Positions 12,804 to 44,964 of a stretch of 45,000 nucleotides of DNA are shown here, piece by piece (position 1 is the stretch's first letter; the number at the start of each line of letters is the position of its first letter). The translations under genes were made by a program, and so were the position numbers. This DNA comes from Neocallimastix lanati (nom. inval.). Lineage: Eukaryota > Neocallimastigomycota > Neocallimastigomycetes > Neocallimastigales > Neocallimastigaceae. The notes beneath the pieces were generated by a model. That model had not been told where the DNA came from and searched no databases. It saw nothing but the letters and a program-made list of their open reading frames with translations. The stretch lies in assembly GCA_016946835.1 (NCBI GenBank), contig JACVTC010000050.1, forward strand, positions 977,501-1,022,500, given 5' to 3'.

Positions 12804-14117
12804 TAATAATAATAATAATAAATATAAATATTATATAAAATATAATAAATTATCTATATATATATTTTACCTAAAGTTAATATGGTTAGCATAGAAAATC
12901 TTTCAATCCAATTCTTTTTATTAAAAATAGGGTATTTAGATGATGAATTATTTGATTTGTTTTGTAAATTGAGATTTGTATATATTCGACTTTGAATGAA
13001 AACAATCACAAAATAAAAAACAATATCCATAATAAAAGTAATATACCACAAGACATATTTTTCAGTGACTGATTTTTTTATAAAAAATGACATGATAAAA
13101 GGTGCCATTGAAACTATTGTATATAGCGGAAGACAAACCATAATATATTTTGGACCTGGATTTGCCATTAAATATGTAAATAGACAATATATTCTAATAA
13201 TTATGGAAAGAATTATAAAAAGGTTGAAAAAAGAATTAGGATTTTTTATTTCAGTTAAAACATCTTCTCTTATACAAAATATTGTTAACGTGAATACTCC
13301 ATATTTAATTATTTGACATAACCAATTAATAGTTTCTGGAAAGCCTACTAAATCAGAATGATGAGACAAAATAAACCAATGCCTTTATATATAAAATAAA
13401 TATTCATAATTTATTGAATAAACAAATTTAATTATTAGAATTTATTAATATTTTATAATTTAATTTAATATTTAATAATAGTTTGCTTGAGTATAATTAT
13501 AAGAACATACTCCCATGTATAAATGTAAAATATAACAATTCCAAAGAAGAATGTATTTTCAAATGTATTGTTTAAAAGAATATTATCTAAGGGTAATAAA
13601 AAAAATGAAATAATAAAAAATTTTTTTACAATTTTTTTTTTTTATTTAGATTTAATATATATCGATACTTTGTCATTTGTATTATAAATTAGTTATGCTA
13701 ATCTGTACTTATTCTTAATATGCCATAACCTAAAATGAAATCAAGTAATATCTATAATATTTTTTATATAATTATAGTAAAATGTAATGATATTAATTTA
13801 TTGAGTAATTTGTAAATTTTTTTGATTAAATATTAAATATGATATGAAAATAATTTACATCATTTTTATAAGAAGTAATATTGTTAAATACGTATGTTGT
13901 TTTATAGTAATATTGATTTAAAAATGGAAGAATTGATAATTTTTTTGTTTTATTTTCTACATCATTATCACTATCAGCCTATATATTCAATTAAATATGA
14001 ATAAATTCAAGAACATTATTTAATCATAATTATTTTTATAATGTATGTTTTATATTATAAATTTAGTTAAACTTATTAAGTTACTTTTTCTTTATTAATG
14101 CTTGTTTCATCAGCCAT
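11387..14117 (-). CDS. LtrA-like multi-pass membrane protein, 6 exons
   Basis: Predicted integral membrane protein of 655 residues resembling the low temperature requirement A (LtrA) family, whose biochemical role is not established. Exons: 14085-14117, 13892-13978, 13709-13751, 13511-13586, 12871-13382, 11387-12603. All splice phases agree. Short N-terminal exons encode MADETSINKEK, LSILPFLNQYYYKTTY and ILLDFILGYGILRI. Several membrane helices follow, with NWIERFSMLTILTL near residue 245, corresponding to the family E-R-x-x-x-x-T-I-x-L-G block. VLHLPLHLGISLVGLAL resembles the later family helix. A hydrophilic loop of about 140 residues rich in S, N, K and E precedes two C-terminal membrane helices (about residues 570-630). 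The extreme N-terminus rests on tiny exons and is the least certain part. Other multi-pass families are possible. Confidence 0.7.
12764..12822. repeat. (AAT)n microsatellite in LtrA-like intron 5
   Basis: Interrupted AAT repeats lie inside the intron between exons 5 and 6 of the LtrA-like gene. Confidence 0.8.
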
Positions 14118-15152: not shown

Positions 15153-17195
15153 TTAATTATTTCTGAAATCTTTACAATAGACAGGTCCAACGTTATAAAG
15201 ATTGGATTTATATTCATTTTCTTGAATATTACATGATAAAATAAATGTATTCTTTTTCCTTTTAGGTCGTCGAAAGAATTTATTAAGATTTTGATTCCAT
15301 TTGATTACAGAACGATTTGTACTAAAATCAATATTTTGACTTTGATCTTCTTTAAATGAAAGAATTTCTATTATATCGTTAAAAATTGTTGATTTTTGTA
15401 AATCAATTGTATTTGAAGAAAAATCTGGTGAAGAAGTGAATTTATCATCTATGGGTTCTATCTCATTATAGGCAGTTGATGATAATGTAAAAGGATTAGC
15501 TTTTTGTAAATGACGCTGAATCATTATTAAATTAATATCATCTTTAATTTTTGAACTTGATCTTATACGACCTTTCCTTTTGAGACCTCCTTTGATTTTA
15601 ATAAAAAGTTCTGGTTCTAAATTGTGATCATAGAATTGCTTTGTAGAATTAATATCTAAATAAACATGAAGCGAATTAAATTTGGAACTGTTTGATAATG
15701 GTGAAGATGAAGGTGAAGAAAGAGGAGATGAAAGTGATTCTTGACTATAATGGTGAGAATGGTGATCATTTATAGTATCTTGAAGTATTAATTCAACAGG
15801 AGAATAAACATAAATTAAATGTTCTAGATGATGGCAATGAGGCCAGAAAGCTTTTTGGGTTAAAAATTTTATAAAATATTTTATTTTCTGTTCAATTGTA
15901 TCTTTATAAGGAATACCATCAATTAGAGATGTAATATTAATAGTTTCTTGTTGATATAGAAATTCATTACAACAATTACAATAGATTTGAATAGTGTTTA
16001 CAATATCATCAATTGTATCAATATTTCTATTGTTTTTATAAGAACTTGTTATGATTGGATATTCTAGTGCATTTGGATTGTTAGTTCGTTTAATAATAAT
16101 TTTGGATATAAATGCATTAACTTTTGCTAAACCTTAATTATATAATAAATGAATATAAAAATTATATAATTTTAGCTTGATTACTATTCATTGATAATTA
16201 ACTATTGCTTTTTAAAATCATTTATTATTTTATTTTTCAAACTTACCATTAAATCTTGATTTTATTAAATATTCAATGCTATTAAAATCTTTTGGAATTA
16301 TTTTTTTTGTATACTCAATTAATTTATTTTGAATATTTGTTGGAATATTATTTGATGTTTGAATTCTAGAATACTTTGTAGCGTACAATACTAATTCTAA
16401 TTACATTTATTTGTTCATTTATAAATAAATAAATAATATATAAATATAAATAATATATATATATAAATAAATAATTTATAAATAATATATATATTTATAT
16501 AATTATTAAAATTTTTAATAATATAATATTTATAATCTCTATATTACCTTTATTAGTTTCTTCATGAATGATTAAATCGTAGAAATCATACATTTTTTGT
16601 TCATTAATGTGAATATATTGAAGAAGTTCAGGGTGAACAAATAAATTATTACTATGTTTATTATTTTTAAGTTATAATAATTAATAATTAATAAATTATA
16701 ATTATAATAATTATATTCTTTGTATATAATTCATATAAATATTAATCACTTACATTTGCAGAGTAACTTTTTCATTATCAACGTCTAAAATTTCTACTTT
16801 CCAAATTTCATAAGTTTTGTCATCATCACTAATTTTTACATCCTTCATAATACTAATAGGTACACCTTGAATATTTATACATTTATTTTTATACAATGGA
16901 AATTGTCTAATGGTTAAAAAAGTTGAATTATTCACATGAACATCCGCATTGAGTTGATTTTTATCTATTTTTTAAATTTAAAAATTATTTATATAAATAT
17001 TAATAAATTTAATTTAAAAATATATATATATATTAATTATTTATATATTAATATACCTTTATATAGAAATTTGGCAAAATTATCGTTTTTAGCCCAATTT
17101 TGGATATCAATAACTTTTTGGACTATTTCAGGATTAACTACATTTAGATTAATATTATGTTAATAATAATAATAAAAAAAAGAAATAATACAATA

Positions 17196-17252
<57 letters not shown>

Positions 17253-20200
17253 AAATAAACAAATAAACAAATAAAAAATAAACAAGTAGAGATACTATAC
17301 CATTAAGATTTATTGCATTTTTGTCATTAATATTTTTAATAATATAAAACTTTGAGGAATAATTATTATTTCCCCATCCAACAGTGTTGGCCATGACTTT
17401 ATTTCTATATTTTGTAAGTGTAAAATTAACAAAAAGAATAATGTCTCCAGTTGAAATTCTATTAATCCAATCACTATTACTTCTCCAAAATATCACTGGA
17501 AAAAAAGTGTATGATGAATCAGATATTGTAACAGAAGAAATTAAAATTGACTGTTCATTGGAATCAAAAATATTAATTACTTTATTTTTATTTCTTGGAT
17601 AAACTGTTTCAATATTATTTATTTGAACAATTATTCCCATAAAGTTATATTTCTTCTTAACCTTAGATATATTAATACTATTAACAGAAGAATTGAAGCT
17701 TAGATTTCCATTTTCAAGATTTTTTTGATCATTTTGATATTGATCATTTAATAGCTTTAATGATTTAATAATTTCAATATTAGTTGGTAGAATCAATGGA
17801 TGACAAACATCACTATCAATTGGACTTTCTTCAAATGAAGAAATTGATGAAATGGTCGTTGGTATAGAATTAGGAAATTCATAATCTTTTGGGTTACTTG
17901 ATTTAGCTGATAGTATAATTTGAAGCTTACCAGGTGAACGGTCTGGAACATTAATAAAAGATAATGAATTTAATGAATGATCTTTAATATTTTTAGGTGA
18001 AGTAATCTGGTTAGTGTGATTTGAGTCATTATTACATATATTTGGTTCTTCAGATTGATTATTTATTATATATTTATTATTATTTGCATTATTATTAATA
18101 TATTTTGGTTTAAAAGGTGTTGGGGTATTAGCAATAAATGATGAAGACGATTCCTGAGATACGATATCACCTTCTTCTGATGAATTATTTTTTATTTTTA
18201 TGAATGAACTTTCGGCATTTAAATTATTTTTTCTATTATGGTTTGTATAAACAACATTTTTATCTAATACTTCGTTATCTGATGAATTTGAAAATTTATT
18301 ATTTGGAGTTTTTATTGATGTAATAATTAAACCAGAGGTATCAGATAAAGAAGATACTTGTTTTTTTGAGAAATAGCTTTTAAAACTTTTCCCATCATTA
18401 TATTTATTACTTAATGATAAATCTTGATCTAAATCATCTTTAGCTTCTTTTTCTGAAAGTAGAAAGAAACTATTATCATTTGGTTTTATAGGATGAATAG
18501 GAGATGAATTAAATATATTTTTATTATCATTAATGATTTGATTTGAATTAAGTTGATTTTCTTCACCTTTTACTTTAATATTAATATTATATTGCTTATT
18601 AGATTTATCTAAATCTGCTAATATATTTTCTATAGGAAGAATCTTACTGCAATTATCAAATATATTAGTTCGATCAAGATAATTTTCTATAAAATTATTA
18701 ATAATAATTTCTTCGTTTGTCTCATTTTCTATAAAAGATTTTGAAAGGTTTTCTTTAAATATATTATTACTTTTAGTTTTAGTTAGTTTTGGACAATTTT
18801 CATCTTTATTATAGACTAAATCATTAAAACTGTAACCTGGTGAGGTTATATTTTTATTAAAATCTAAATCAGGTGATTTAATTAATAAATCCACACCTGA
18901 TATTTTATCATCATTATTATTTTTCAAATTATTTTCGTAAATTCGTGTGGTATCGGCATCTGCTCCTTTATCATCCTCATCAATAGCAATAATTAAATTA
19001 CTTTCATCTTTTTCTTTATTAAATTCAGGTGAATTAATGTTATCTTGATATAATGGAGGAGAAAATAAAGGATTATTACTAGATCCTTGACTATTATTAA
19101 TACTTCGCTCTGGTGAAAATATTAAATCGTCATTTTGACTTGGTAATAATTCTTTTTAATATTAATTATTTTTTCGTTTAATGTTATTTATATATTTTAT
19201 TCATAAATTAAATCATAATTTTTAAAATCTTGATTAATTTTTGTAACTATAAAAAAGAAAGAAAAAAAAAAATATATATATATATATATGTATACAATTT
19301 ATTCATTATATATATACTTACTTATATTTTCTATATCTTGGTTTAAAGATTTCTTATCTGTTGAAGGATCTTTATTATCGTTTAATTTTGAATTCAAACT
19401 GAAGTAACTACCGTTATCAATATCTTTATCTAAAACAATAATATTGTTTTTTCCCTCCCTGTTTTTGATATTTTTTCTTAAATTGAATGATTGATTAAGA
19501 GGTAAAATTTCGGATTCTTCAGAATAAATTTTTTGAGTTTCAGTTGATGGAAGTGTGTCCATATTTAAGGTAGGTGAAAAAAAGTCCGGAGATTCTGGAG
19601 TATTATTTATTAAATGCTTTGGAGTTCTATCCTTTTCTAAAATTTCTATATTTTGTTTATTAATTTTAGTAGGATGGTTGAAATTTAAATTTGGTGATTT
19701 TGAATTTGCAAAATTTTTATCTGGAGATATAAGATTTGGTGATTTTAAGGAATTTTTAGAATTAATCGAATTGGTGTTAGATGCATCATCCAATCCAAAA
19801 TCGAAATCTAAATCACGATTAGTATCAAATTCAGGTAATTGAATTTTTTGAGTGTCAAATAAAATTTCTTGAGAGGTTATTTTTTGAGTTTCTATAAAAG
19901 AATCATTCCTTTCCGCTTTACTTTGAGAATGTACTGATGAAGAAATCTTTGGAGATTCATTCATTATATAATTCTTTGGTGATAATAATTCTTGTGAGGA
20001 AATTTTTTGAGTAGGAGAAAGAAGGATCAATTCTTGAGTAGATTTTGGAGTTTCAGCATCTAAATGCTGATGATTTAGTGGAGGAGAAGAAATTATTGAT
20101 TCTTGTGATTGTGAAGGTAGTTTTTGGGTAGCCTCTAGTTTATTTTCATTACAATCAAAATTATTATTATTCTGTGAGAGAATTTGAGTTTCAATATATT

Positions 20201-20554
20201 CCTGAACTTTCTCATTAGTATTTTTATTATGTGAATGTCTTGTTTTTGGATTATTTTCTTGTGATAAAAATTTATTTTCAAAATTATTTTTAGTTTTATT
20301 TTTATTACTAGATGTTATATCTGATACAGTCCTTCTTACTTTGGTAATTTTATCATTAATAATTTCATTTTCAATATCCGAATCAAGCGCATAAATTTCA
20401 TCTGTATTAGAATCATCCAGCTTTTTACGTTTATTACTTGAATAACTATCTGAATTATAAATAATTTCTTCATAGTCATCTAATTGTAAAAATGAACGCT
20501 TATTTGATATTATATTGTCATTATTATCCTAATATAATAATTTTCATATAATAA

Positions 20555-20593
<39 letters not shown>

Positions 20594-21898
20594 TTCACTA
20601 TTATTATATTAAAATGTTTTACCTAATTTAATTTTTTATATATTTAATTATTTATTATTAAAAATTTGATTCACTATTGATATTATTATTACCTTTTTAT
20701 TTATATTTTCATAATCTAATGGATTTAATATTTTTAGATATCTGGTTGATGCTGTTGAAGAACTATTATAAATATTACTTATAGAATATTCAAAAGAATC
20801 TTCATATTCTGATCCTGATGCTTCAGCAATTATTTCATCATTTATTTCATTCTTACCACATTTATTATTATTTTTATTTGAACCATATGGAATATCATTC
20901 CCATTTTCATTTCGAACACACTCCTGTGTATCCATATCAACATATTCTTGAGTTGCGATAATTGAACCTTCATAATTCTGAGTTTGTGAAATTTGAGAAA
21001 ATTCATTAATTAATTCCAACGGTTGCGTATTTTCTATATTATTTTCATTACTGTTATTAACGAGAATGCTATTAGGTTTAATAAATGTAGATTTTTTATT
21101 TGAAACAGATTTATTTGAATTGACAAATTGATTAGTATTTTGAAGTTCATTATAATCAAATGGAATAGTATTTTGATATTCGTTATCGTAGAAAGGTACT
21201 GTATCTTGAAATTCATTCTCATAAGATATAGTATTTTGAAGATTATTCATATTATTTGCTATGCTTTCATTTTCAATAGGTATAGTATCTTGAAATTCGT
21301 CTTCATTATTATGTATAATATTTATGCTTTCATTTTCAATGGGTATGGTGTTTTGAATTTCTTCTTCATTATTGGGTAAAATATCTATGTCTTCGTTTTC
21401 AATAGGTACTGTATCTTGAAGTTCGTCTTCATTATTATGCAAAATATCTATGTCTTCGTTTTCAATAGGTACTGTATCTTGAAGTTCGTCTTCATTACTA
21501 GGTGAATTATCAGAATTTTCATTCTCAATAGGTATAGTATCTTGAAGTTCATCTTCATTTAAAGGAAATTCTTTAAGGATTTTATTATTTTTATTTAAAT
21601 TTTGATTAAATAATGAAGTATTAAATTTAAATTCGGTTAATTCTGTATTACTTAAAAGTTCTAATTTCATAACATTTTTATCTTTTAATTCTTTAGGTAA
21701 TTGTGTTATTAACCAGATAGATGAATTTATGTTATATTTATGTTCTACGGGAACTTGTCCATTTTTCTTTTCAAAAGAAAAAGTCTTTTTTGAAATGCTA
21801 TATTTATCATTTTCTTTTAGGTATTTATATTTTAATTTCTGTGGAAAATTAAATTTTAAATATACATCTTTTTGAATTTTTTGATTATTTATATTCAT
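15153..21898 (-). CDS. SHLD2: Shieldin-2-like (SHLD2/FAM35A) OB-fold protein with long SQ/TQ-rich disordered region, 8 exons
   Basis: Predicted nuclear protein of about 1929 residues. Exons: 20693-21898, 19322-20528, 17301-19151, 17057-17137, 16754-16964, 16548-16651, 16247-16396, 15153-16132. They total 5790 nt and every junction keeps phase. Residues 1-90 may be folded. About 110-260 carry tandem repeats; about 260-1290 are low-complexity, Asn/Ser-rich, with more than 20 SQ/TQ sites and SP sites. A first OB-like domain (about 1300-1410) has FWRSNSDWINRISTGDIILF, close to the human SHLD2 pattern W-R...W...GDIILL as I recall it. A second OB-like region (about 1465-1560) follows. A third (about 1580-1760) has YCNCCNEF then WPHCHH, suggesting a zinc site where SHLD2 also has cysteines. 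NLS-like NKRKK and RRPKRKK are present. In vertebrates SHLD2 binds ssDNA and limits end resection. An RPA1- or MEIOB-like protein is the main alternative. The first exon has no recognised homology. Confidence 0.62.
15990..15993 (-). other. Cysteine cluster of putative zinc site in the SHLD2-like protein
   Basis: Marks the approximate location on the minus strand of the YCNCCNEF codons (about 15970-15993). A second cluster, WPHCHH, is encoded at about 15830-15850. In SHLD2 and RPA1 the last OB fold carries a zinc ribbon of cysteines. Here the second half is His-rich, so zinc binding is inferred rather than shown. Confidence 0.4.
17196..17250. repeat. (AAAT)n microsatellite in SHLD2-like intron 3
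   Basis: About 13 copies of a four-base repeat lie in the 163-base intron between exons 3 and 4, about 50 bases from the donor site at 17300. Confidence 0.9.
20557..20592. repeat. (TTA)n microsatellite in SHLD2-like intron 1
   Basis: An uninterrupted TTA run of about 12 units lies inside the intron between exons 1 and 2. Confidence 0.85.
21120..21570 (-). repeat. Coding tandem repeat, 21-residue unit (N-E-D-E-L-Q-D-T-[VI]-P-I-E-N-E)
   Basis: Five full 63-base units of the pattern NEDELQDT[VI]PIENE plus a 6-7 residue spacer (DIDILHN, DIDILPN and similar) are followed by four shortened units (NLQNT, NEFQDT, NEYQNT, NELQNT). The adjacent units around 21380-21500 are almost identical at DNA level, which indicates recent duplication; outer units have diverged. 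The conserved core is acidic residues followed by Q-D/N-T-hydrophobic-P. Confidence 0.92.
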
Positions 21899-22891
21899 TG
21901 GTATAAGAAAAATATGAGTTTATATATGTACTATTGAATAATAACAACAACAATAATAATAATAACAGCAACAACAATAATAATATCGATATTAACAATT
22001 AATTAAATTTTATGGATAATTGTGAAAAAATTTAATTGTACTATACTATGTTAGTATATTTAACAATAAGTTATAAAATTAAATCAATTATCATTATATA
22101 ATTCAAATTACTATAATATAAATAGTTACTATGTAAAAATCCTATAAGTTTCATATGTATATTATATATGTATTATATAAAATTATAACATTTATTATTA
22201 TATATTGTAAAATATAGTTTAAGAAAGATAAAATATATATAATTAATATTTTAATAGTTATTATTTTTGAAAATACTTTTATATGCTAAATATTATTCAA
22301 TTTTGTTTTATTATAAATAAAAAAAAAAGAAAAGTAAAAATTTTATCTATTTAAAAAGTATTAGTTAAAATTAAATTACTATATATATTGGTATATTAAT
22401 AATTTAAATACATTATATATATCAAGCCATATTAAACAGTATGTTTTATGTATTTAATTTCAATAATATTAAGATTAGATTTTAATAATTAGTATTTAAT
22501 ATTTAATATTTATACAATTAATTAAAGTATTAAATGAAAAAAATAATTAAGAAATAATAAATTAATTAAAATATATTATTTAATAAATAACAATTATAAT
22601 ATATTTAAATATTTTTATTAATTATATTTTTATTTATTTAATTTTTTTTTTTTTTTTCTAAAAAAAAAAATTAAAAAGTAAAATAGTAGTTTATAAATAA
22701 TTAATTTATTGATATTTTGATCATCAGAATTAAAATTTGTATTTATAATATTATTATTATTATTTATATAAATATCAAAATCAAACATAATAATACTTTT
22801 TAGACGTATATAATATTTTTTTCAATTTTTTTTAAAAAAAATATAAATATATTTATTTTGAAGAAAATTAAATAAAATTAAATAATTAAAG
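21899..22891. promoter_or_regulatory. Divergent intergenic region between SHLD2-like gene and proteasome beta-4
   Basis: 993 bases separate the two start codons, which point away from each other, so the region must hold both promoters. It has short CAA/AAT runs at 21945-21985 and T/A homopolymers at 22640-22670. I did not find a recognisable proteasome-type box (such as GGTGGCAAA) by eye. The A-rich leader directly before the ATG at 22892 is typical of AT-rich genomes. Confidence 0.5.
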
Positions 22892-23218
22892 ATGGAAGTT
22901 CTTCTTGGTATTCAAGGAAAGGATTTTGTATTAGTTGCTAGTGATGCATTAGCCATTACTTCAATTGTTGCAATGAAGCGTAATCATAATAAAACAAGAA
23001 AATTAAATAATAATGTATTATTAATGTTTTCAGGTGAAGGTGGTGATACCGTTCAGTTTTGTGAATTTATTCAACGTAATGTTCAATTAAATGGTATTCG
23101 TAGAGGCTATCCATTATCTACAAAAGCTGCTGCAAATTTTACAAGAATTGAACTTGCTGATTCACTTAGATCAAGAGTAATTATAAAAATTTATAAATAT
23201 AGAATTTCTTGATAAAAA

Positions 23219-35730: not shown

Positions 35731-37017
35731 TTACTTCTTTCCATTAACTTTAATCCATTGAGCACGAGCACCTAAAACTGAACTCGTAATACCGAATAAA
35801 CCAAGGTAGAGTGGATCAATTCTACAGAAACCTAATCCAGATATTGGATGGACGAAATCACAGAAGTGTTGAGTTAAAGTTAAGTAGTGATTTCTTTTTT
35901 TGTCAAGAAGCTTCTTAAGATCATCAGCATTTCTCTTCTTTTCTTCAGGTTTCTCTTCATCAATAGATTTAACATTAGTGATGGCAAAAATCTTTTCATT
36001 GGTCTTTCTTAACTTGAACAATTCATTCATAATACCGAATATAATACCAATTAACCAGAATCTTTGAGAGTTCTTAGAGATATTTTTGATATTTTCAGAT
36101 TTCTTAACACCTGATTTGTGGAACCAAACCATCATATCAAAAGTAAGATAAATAGTATAAGCTAAATTACGACCAAGTACACAGTATTTTGAGAAATCAT
36201 CCTTTAGAGTTAATGACTTGTAGAATGTATTAAGATGTTCTAATGGTTTTCCAATACGAACAACTAATTTTATTATGTTAATATAAAATAAAATTTAATA
36301 TAGAAAAATAAAATAAATATAATTTTATTATATTATTAATACATAAATACTTACATTTACGAGATAATTGAATGTTCTTAATTACATTTCTAATCCAAGC
36401 GATTGTTTCTTCCTTACCATTATACTTTATGTTATAAGCAAGAAGGAACTTGAAAGTGTGTTGTAAAGTTCTATTTTAAAATTATTTAAATATGAATTTT
36501 AATTATATAATTATAATAATCTTAATTAATTCTATAGATTAAAATATATTATATTACTTACCTATTAATCTTGTCACGACCAGTAGTAGTATTGATGTAC
36601 TTGAAGAACTATTAAAAAAAGGTTACGATAAAAATATAGTTTAAAAATTATAACATTTAATATTATTTTTACAATGACTTCAACTTAAAAATTTTTTATT
36701 ATGGTATATTTATTATGGTAATAATAATTAATTTTATTATATTATCATTTCTTAAATCAAATAACTCTTTAATTTTTTTTTTTTTTTTTTTTTTTTGAAA
36801 ATACATATAATTAATATTTTAACAAAATTTAATATTCCTTATAGTTATATATTTTAATTTATAATTATTATAACAGTTTTATTATCTTCTAAAAAATATA
36901 AATCTATATATAAAAATACCAATTCATAAAGAGAATAATAATGAAAAACAAAAAACAAAAAACAAAAAAAAAAAAAAAAAAGCTTACTTGATTAATTAAA
37001 ACAGTTTTGTCAGACAT
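35731..37017 (-). CDS. PEX11: PEX11-family peroxisomal membrane protein, 4 exons
   Basis: Peroxisomal membrane protein of the PEX11 family, which bends and elongates the peroxisome membrane before fission. Exons: 36988-37017, 36562-36608, 36355-36470, 35731-36263. They total 726 nt (241 residues), close to the usual 235-260, and all phases agree. The N-terminal part contains YINTTTGRDKINRTLQHTFK, matching the family start (x-x-T-x-G-R-D-K-x-x-R). A central SRKFVRIGKPLEHLNTF matches the conserved R-K-x-x-R-x-G-K block. Conserved aromatic segments NLAYTIYLTFDMMVWFHKSG follow. After a charged loop (about residues 140-190) comes a C-terminal hydrophobic segment, LYLGLFGITSSVLGARAQW, typical of the membrane-embedded end. 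The assignment is strong; the peroxisome itself is inferred. Confidence 0.92.

Positions 37018-40213: not shown

Positions 40214-44964
<4,751 letters not shown>

Follow-up and report, generated by a model that had tools for sequence, protein, structure and literature searches.

In a window of 45,000 nucleotides (the whole stretch of DNA analysed here) from the anaerobic gut fungus Neocallimastix lanati (GenBank assembly GCA_016946835.1, contig JACVTC010000050.1, positions 977,501 to 1,022,500), we found a gene on the reverse strand whose 1929-residue product carries a first OB domain (OB1) that falls by profile in the family SHLD2_OB1. SHLD2 (FAM35A, RINN2) is subunit 2 of vertebrate shieldin and protects the ends of broken DNA. 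Ahead of its OB region the fungal protein bears conserved SQ/TQ clusters, which are a new feature that goes beyond the SHLD2-like match itself. Judging from these sequence features, we lean towards a protein that is regulated by DNA damage and would bind single-stranded DNA (ssDNA) at broken ends, limit resection and favour end joining. We assign it to the SHLD2_OB1 family and think it likely to work as SHLD2 does, but do not call it a proven shieldin subunit. Since neither the SHLD2_C domain, nor the four-cysteine ribbon, nor the N-terminal REV7-binding motif was found in it, it is not filed as SHLD2 itself.

The source assembly comprises 762 contigs and 199 Mb, and the G+C content along the window is 10-30%. 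Seven GT-AG introns of 92-170 bases each interrupt the gene. The sequence-only reading had joined the exons into one gene, and we can endorse this: the eight-exon model is open over 1929 residues, and a protein search retrieved a public protein, P0001, also of 1929 residues, that is identical to it at 1926 of them. The longest contig of P0001 has 5,965 bases and the gene 6,746, so P0001 was, to judge from this shorter length, likely read from spliced RNA. Protein searches with fungal queries gave named relatives in Piromyces finnis, Piromyces sp. E2 and Anaeromyces robustus, and the identity of the window protein to three relatives from the protein search is 64-69%. The UniRef names of the P. 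finnis and A. robustus proteins refer to a shieldin subunit 2 domain, presumably through automatic naming; hence the SHLD2 match is already present in databases.

Regarding the first OB domain, the window protein scored 38.8 bits (E 8.9e-10) against Pfam SHLD2_OB1 (PF21669), which has a curated cut-off of 26 bits, and the domain alone scored 42.7 bits (E 5.6e-11). Six of the seven fungal sequences scanned were over the cut-off, with 38.8-49.6 bits; besides the window protein these were P0002 (4.3e-12), P0003 (3.2e-11), P0004 (1.6e-10), P0005 (4.3e-13) and P0007 (5.1e-10). The seventh, P0006, is a fragment without the OB1 region and gave no match. In P0001 the domain is present according to the database's own domain list. 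Among the matches listed for the whole genome, the gene described here is the only one to SHLD2_OB1. When compared by hhalign with a profile of mammal SHLD2 (14 sequences chosen among the 120 listed of 614 matches), OB1 paired with OB1 at E 5.7e-5, and none of 60 column shuffles scored as high. The core FWRSNSDWINRISTGDIILF, which the sequence-only reading had likened to the W-R...W...GDIILL stretch of SHLD2, does align with that stretch in mammals. The broader claim of a SHLD2-like protein in a fungal genome holds for OB1, on the strength of Pfam, hhalign, the contrast with RPA1 given below and the gut-fungus relatives in two genera; it does not extend to SHLD2_C or OB_SHLD2_2nd, to which the protein gave no match.

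The N-terminal part begins with a conserved region (49-67% identity among P0001, P0002 and P0003 over residues 1-97) and continues with acidic repeats of the [DN]T[IV]P type, of which the window protein has seven plus one NTIS variant, P0001 eight, and the two Piromyces proteins 12 and 15, counting looser matches. The sequence-only reading had called this part long and disordered, and its composition, the property considered, fits that description. SQ/TQ sites then accumulate: in the 1290 residues of P0001 ahead of the OB region there are 24, where block shuffles give 9.9 and none of 2000 reaches the observed number; the density goes up to 10 sites per 100 residues. The densest 100 residues of P0003 (8 sites) were equalled in 8 of 2000 shuffles, and those of P0001 and P0002 in none. 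Over the whole protein, 18 of 27 sites are aligned in P0001 and both Piromyces proteins. The residue at position +3 is hydrophobic or aromatic in 10 of 12 TQ sites and in 2 of 12 SQ sites (Fisher p 0.0017). A hydrophobic +3 residue occurred at TQ and SQ sites of three relatives in 7/12 and 3/15 (p 0.049), 11/15 and 4/19 (p 0.003), and 7/11 and 3/13 (p 0.055) cases, tests that are not independent of one another. We claim the +3 preference for TQ sites only. Outside the repeat array we also looked for a broader excess of T-x-x-[ILV] and discarded it: it was weak or absent, being equalled by 41 of 500 shuffles in P0001, 239 in P0002 and 29 in P0003, and the +4 offset control showed enrichment of its own in P0003 (1 of 500 shuffles).

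We also looked for partner genes in the same genome. Human REV7 matched two adjacent exons (2.9e-6 and 3.3e-4), and the gene assembled from this locus (L002) has its best PDB matches in MAD2B, that is REV7 (6.2e-29), well ahead of MAD2A (5.3e-6). It retains the stretches FPWILAD and QLYVE. The REV7 orthologue that the sequence-only reading had looked to is therefore present, and a Ku gene is present too. Against Pfam HORMA the fungal REV7 scored 20.5 bits where the cut-off is 24, and a HORMA search of the genome returned nothing even though REV7 is there. As that search missed a real REV7, little can be read into a family search that comes back empty from a genome so rich in introns. RPA1 is encoded separately, and its C-terminal domain was matched at two places (L011 and L012; C632 and C554), which may be two RPA1 genes or two haplotype copies.

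The OB block of the protein is conserved among gut fungi. Two inserts (34-70%) aside, its stretches show 57-95% identity in P0001, P0002 and P0003, with 62-73% over residues 1421-1575; for the long linker the figure is 42-54%. In the third OB-like region, IKSRFN/GLAKVNAFISKI is divided between exons 7 and 8, and YCNCCNEF lies in exon 8. Its CxxC stands in register with the mammal CxxC, at a non-significant hhalign E of 0.058. The cysteine cluster claimed for this region is thus partly upheld: the CxxC is there and in register, while 3 of 60 shuffles scored as high and the second pair is not CxxC. In place of a four-cysteine CxxC...CxxC ribbon, all five proteins covering the site have HCHH as the second pair. 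We infer an OB fold for each of the two conserved regions after OB1, with CxxC and HCHH forming a zinc ribbon. The last 30 residues are strongly conserved in P0001, P0002, P0003, P0005 and P0006, with LSCNIQENELKTNLYNIGPIYCKDF in two of them and no Pfam match; we take this extreme C-terminus to resemble the last part of the C-terminal OB domain of RPA1.

A number of results weigh against a SHLD2-like protein. Of the three OB folds that had been proposed, the first has sequence support, and the other two gave no significant profile match: 23 of 60 shuffles were as high as the second region against the mammal profile, the third was not significant against mammal OB3, and a longer version of it with the disordered inserts cut out gave E 0.11. 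The whole C-terminal part, used as a profile query, recovered OB1 only (E 0.0036, probability 9%). OB_SHLD2_2nd (PF22779) gave no Pfam match in the fungal proteins and SHLD2_C (PF15793) none at E 10, whereas hamster SHLD2 matched them at 8.2e-43 and 3.5e-75, respectively. SHLD2_C was not matched in the genome either, in a search without positive control, and divergence could hide it. Whole hamster SHLD2 as a query found nothing in the genome, also without positive control. AlphaFold2 models failed, with pLDDT of 30.9 for the C-terminal part (Anaeromyces P0005 with six relatives) and 34.8 for the N-terminal region. At the other end, the fungal N-terminus did not match the REV7-binding N-terminus of mammals (51 of 100 shuffles as high). 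Mammal SHLD2 has no clear SQ/TQ enrichment: the four of the 14 proteins that we counted hold 6-8 sites within their first 420 residues, a number equalled in 33 to 475 of 1000 shuffles. As for the partners, REV7 works for polymerase zeta as well, which makes its presence non-specific, and family searches of the genome detected neither SHLD1_C, the SHLD1 domain that might have accompanied it, nor Stn1, both being weak tests without positive control. The fungal protein did not match the 6kto peptide of SHLD2 either. We also tried VYLKFNFP/VHIFWGAP as a candidate resemblance of the fungal N-terminus to the start of SHLD2, where REV7 binds, and the profile test lent it no support.

One could argue that the SHLD2_OB1 match is an effect of chance or composition in an AT-rich gene whose product is rich in Asn, Ile and Lys. 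The composition is indeed extreme, and one shuffle of OB1 reached 0.003, to an unrelated family. Yet none of five scrambled controls (four of the seven shuffles made plus the reversal) matched SHLD2_OB1, the six related fungal sequences each match it (8.9e-10 to 4.3e-13), and the profile comparison was not equalled in any shuffle. We regard this explanation as most improbable; by these sequence measures, the match is beyond chance. Another explanation is that the protein is some other ssDNA-binding OB protein, either telomeric and like POT1, Cdc13 or CTC1, or a paralogue like MEIOB, SPIDR or RPA1 acting in meiosis, and that OB1 resembles SHLD2 through shared RPA-like ancestry. The next families for OB1 alone were POT1 (0.0027), CDC24_OB3 (0.0041) and POT1PC (0.084), the C-terminal parts match no SHLD2 model, and the failure to find Stn1, weak as that test is, would fit a lineage that uses other telomere proteins. 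However, SHLD2_OB1 outscores POT1 and CDC24_OB3 by some 25 bits, and no other family passes its cut-off, POT1 reaching 18.0 bits (cut-off 29) and CDC24 17.4 bits (cut-off 25.4). RPA1 from the same genome behaves differently, as three of its five open frames matched RPA families, two matched nothing of that kind and none matched SHLD2_OB1; conversely, Rep_fac-A_C and REPA_OB_2, present in that RPA1, gave no match in the SHLD2-like proteins in the Pfam scan. MEIOB, SPIDR and CTC1 were compared through the Pfam scan. Sequence searches of PDB with the OB region found nothing. We consider a different OB protein unlikely, while holding it the strongest competitor.

A SHLD2_OB1 protein in a fungus may move the origin of SHLD2 back to the fungus-animal ancestor, which is one reading of the match. 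If an animal SHLD2 had instead been transferred horizontally into the ancestor of gut fungi, the fungal copy would say nothing about that ancestor. Anaerobic gut fungi inhabit the guts of herbivores, and the searches with fungal queries gave seven proteins, of which the three with organism names belong to gut fungi. Those searches needed shared 5-residue words, so finding gut fungi only does not establish absence elsewhere. The OB1 sequence is only 28% identical to mammal SHLD2 (47 aligned columns), as opposed to 64-69% between the window protein and its three relatives, and the gene has its seven introns; with these two points, we think transfer improbable.

In order to contextualize the SHLD2_OB1 protein, we compared it with known systems. 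It is like SHLD2 in its first OB domain by profile, in having a long N-terminal part followed by a C-terminal block of conserved domains, and in the CxxC of the last domain. It differs in lacking a detectable OB_SHLD2_2nd or SHLD2_C, in the likely second zinc pair (HCHH, 45 residues past CxxC, where mammal SHLD2 has CxxC), in being twice as long with an N-terminus unrelated by profile, and in its far denser SQ/TQ clusters. Phosphorylation at an SQ site has been reported for human SHLD2 (PMC6003645); a single SQ/TQ site is common to all 14 aligned mammal sequences. OB1 shares OB-family similarity with RPA1, POT1, CDC24 and CTC1-type proteins, but none of these is over cut-off for it. In MDC1, as set out in PMC11884936, ATM phosphorylates TQXF motifs that are then bound by FHA domains (RNF8/Pellino), and acidic motifs upstream of TQXF bind NBS1. 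Compared with MDC1 as described there, the fungal protein is similar in its TQ cluster with a hydrophobic or aromatic +3 residue and in the repeated acidic threonine motif ahead of it; it is unlike MDC1 in that the full-length relatives P0002 and P0003 have no BRCT or FHA Pfam match and in that +3 is mostly Ile, Leu or Tyr and not Phe. This resemblance is one of design and not of descent, and we claim no homology.

According to the mechanism that we favour for the SHLD2_OB1 protein, kinases of the Tel1/ATM or Mec1/ATR type would phosphorylate the SQ/TQ clusters, and FHA-domain proteins would then read the TQ sites with a hydrophobic +3 residue. REV7, placed on the N-terminal part or on an unseen partner, may link the protein to breaks, where the OB block would hold ssDNA and limit resection. 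One protein would in this way combine a phosphorylated scaffold for recruitment, as animals have in MDC1/53BP1, with an effector that protects the ends, as they have in SHLD2. A bolder proposal, which we advance tentatively and rate as rather unlikely, is that shieldin-type end protection is older than the fungus-animal split and that gut-fungus SHLD2 is a one-protein system, in which an MDC1/53BP1-like, kinase-written and FHA-read TQ array fused to a SHLD2 ssDNA clamp would do alone the jobs of MDC1, 53BP1, RIF1, SHLD3 and SHLD2.

Features of the SHLD2-like gene, in positions of the window
Feature	Position	Strand	Remarks
Whole gene	15153..21898	-	8 exons, 1929-residue protein; splice model and P0001 match
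Exon 1	20693..21898	-	aa 1-402
Conserved N-terminal region, no known family	21608..21898	-	aa 1-97; no Pfam match
Acidic [DN]T[IV]P-type repeat array	21149..21541	-	aa 120-250
SQ/TQ cluster 1	20924..21028	-	aa 291-325; six sites, all aligned in P0001, P0002 and P0003
Exon 2	19322..20528	-	aa 403-804
SQ/TQ cluster 2	19848..20189	-	aa 516-629; TQK[IL]xSQE-type units
Exon 3	17301..19151	-	aa 805-1421; terminates where OB1 ends
First OB domain, Pfam SHLD2_OB1	17301..17667	-	E 8.9e-10, 5.6e-11 and 5.2e-10 in separate scans
Core motif FWRSNSDWINRISTGDIILF	17431..17490	-	aligns with mammal VxLWRTAAFWALTVFLGDIILL
Second OB-like region	16548..17137	-	exons 4-6; putative, by position only
Exon 4	17057..17137	-	splice model
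Exon 5	16754..16964	-	splice model
Exon 6	16548..16651	-	splice model
Exon 7	16247..16396	-	splice model
Exon 8	15153..16132	-	splice model
CxxC of third OB-like region, predicted zinc ligands	15969..15980	-	5/5 fungal proteins covering the site
HCHH, likely second zinc-ligand pair	15828..15839	-	same 5/5 proteins; always 45 residues from CxxC

Elsewhere in the window, an exon of a proteasome subunit (22886..23212, forward strand; Pfam PF00227, E 3.2e-17) is encoded upstream of the SHLD2-like gene and in the opposite direction. A PEX11 peroxisome-division gene was found at 35731..36294 on the reverse strand (Pfam PF05648, E 1.5e-38); peroxisome retention in anaerobic gut fungi is an open matter. 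Also on the reverse strand are a membrane-protein-like open reading frame (ORF) at 12854..13384, with an LtrA likeness below cut-off (E 0.00038), and, at 42215..42865, an extended stretch of TAT codons (one frame reads poly-tyrosine), beside an ORF at 41152..41958 without a Pfam match.

A paper of 2018 reported SHLD2 from vertebrates alone, and Badugu et al. 2024 cite Setiaputra and Durocher 2019 for absence from yeast, fly, worm, zebrafish and frog (PMC11616998). Among the papers listed in searches of the open-licence literature we saw no report of a fungal SHLD2 or shieldin, and one may exist elsewhere. If the reading given here is true, the presence of such a relative in a fungus that has REV7 and Ku of its own would place the origin of the end-protection module much deeper than the vertebrates. 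It would also offer a natural case of recruitment joined to effector, by which the order of assembly of the 53BP1-shieldin pathway would become testable.

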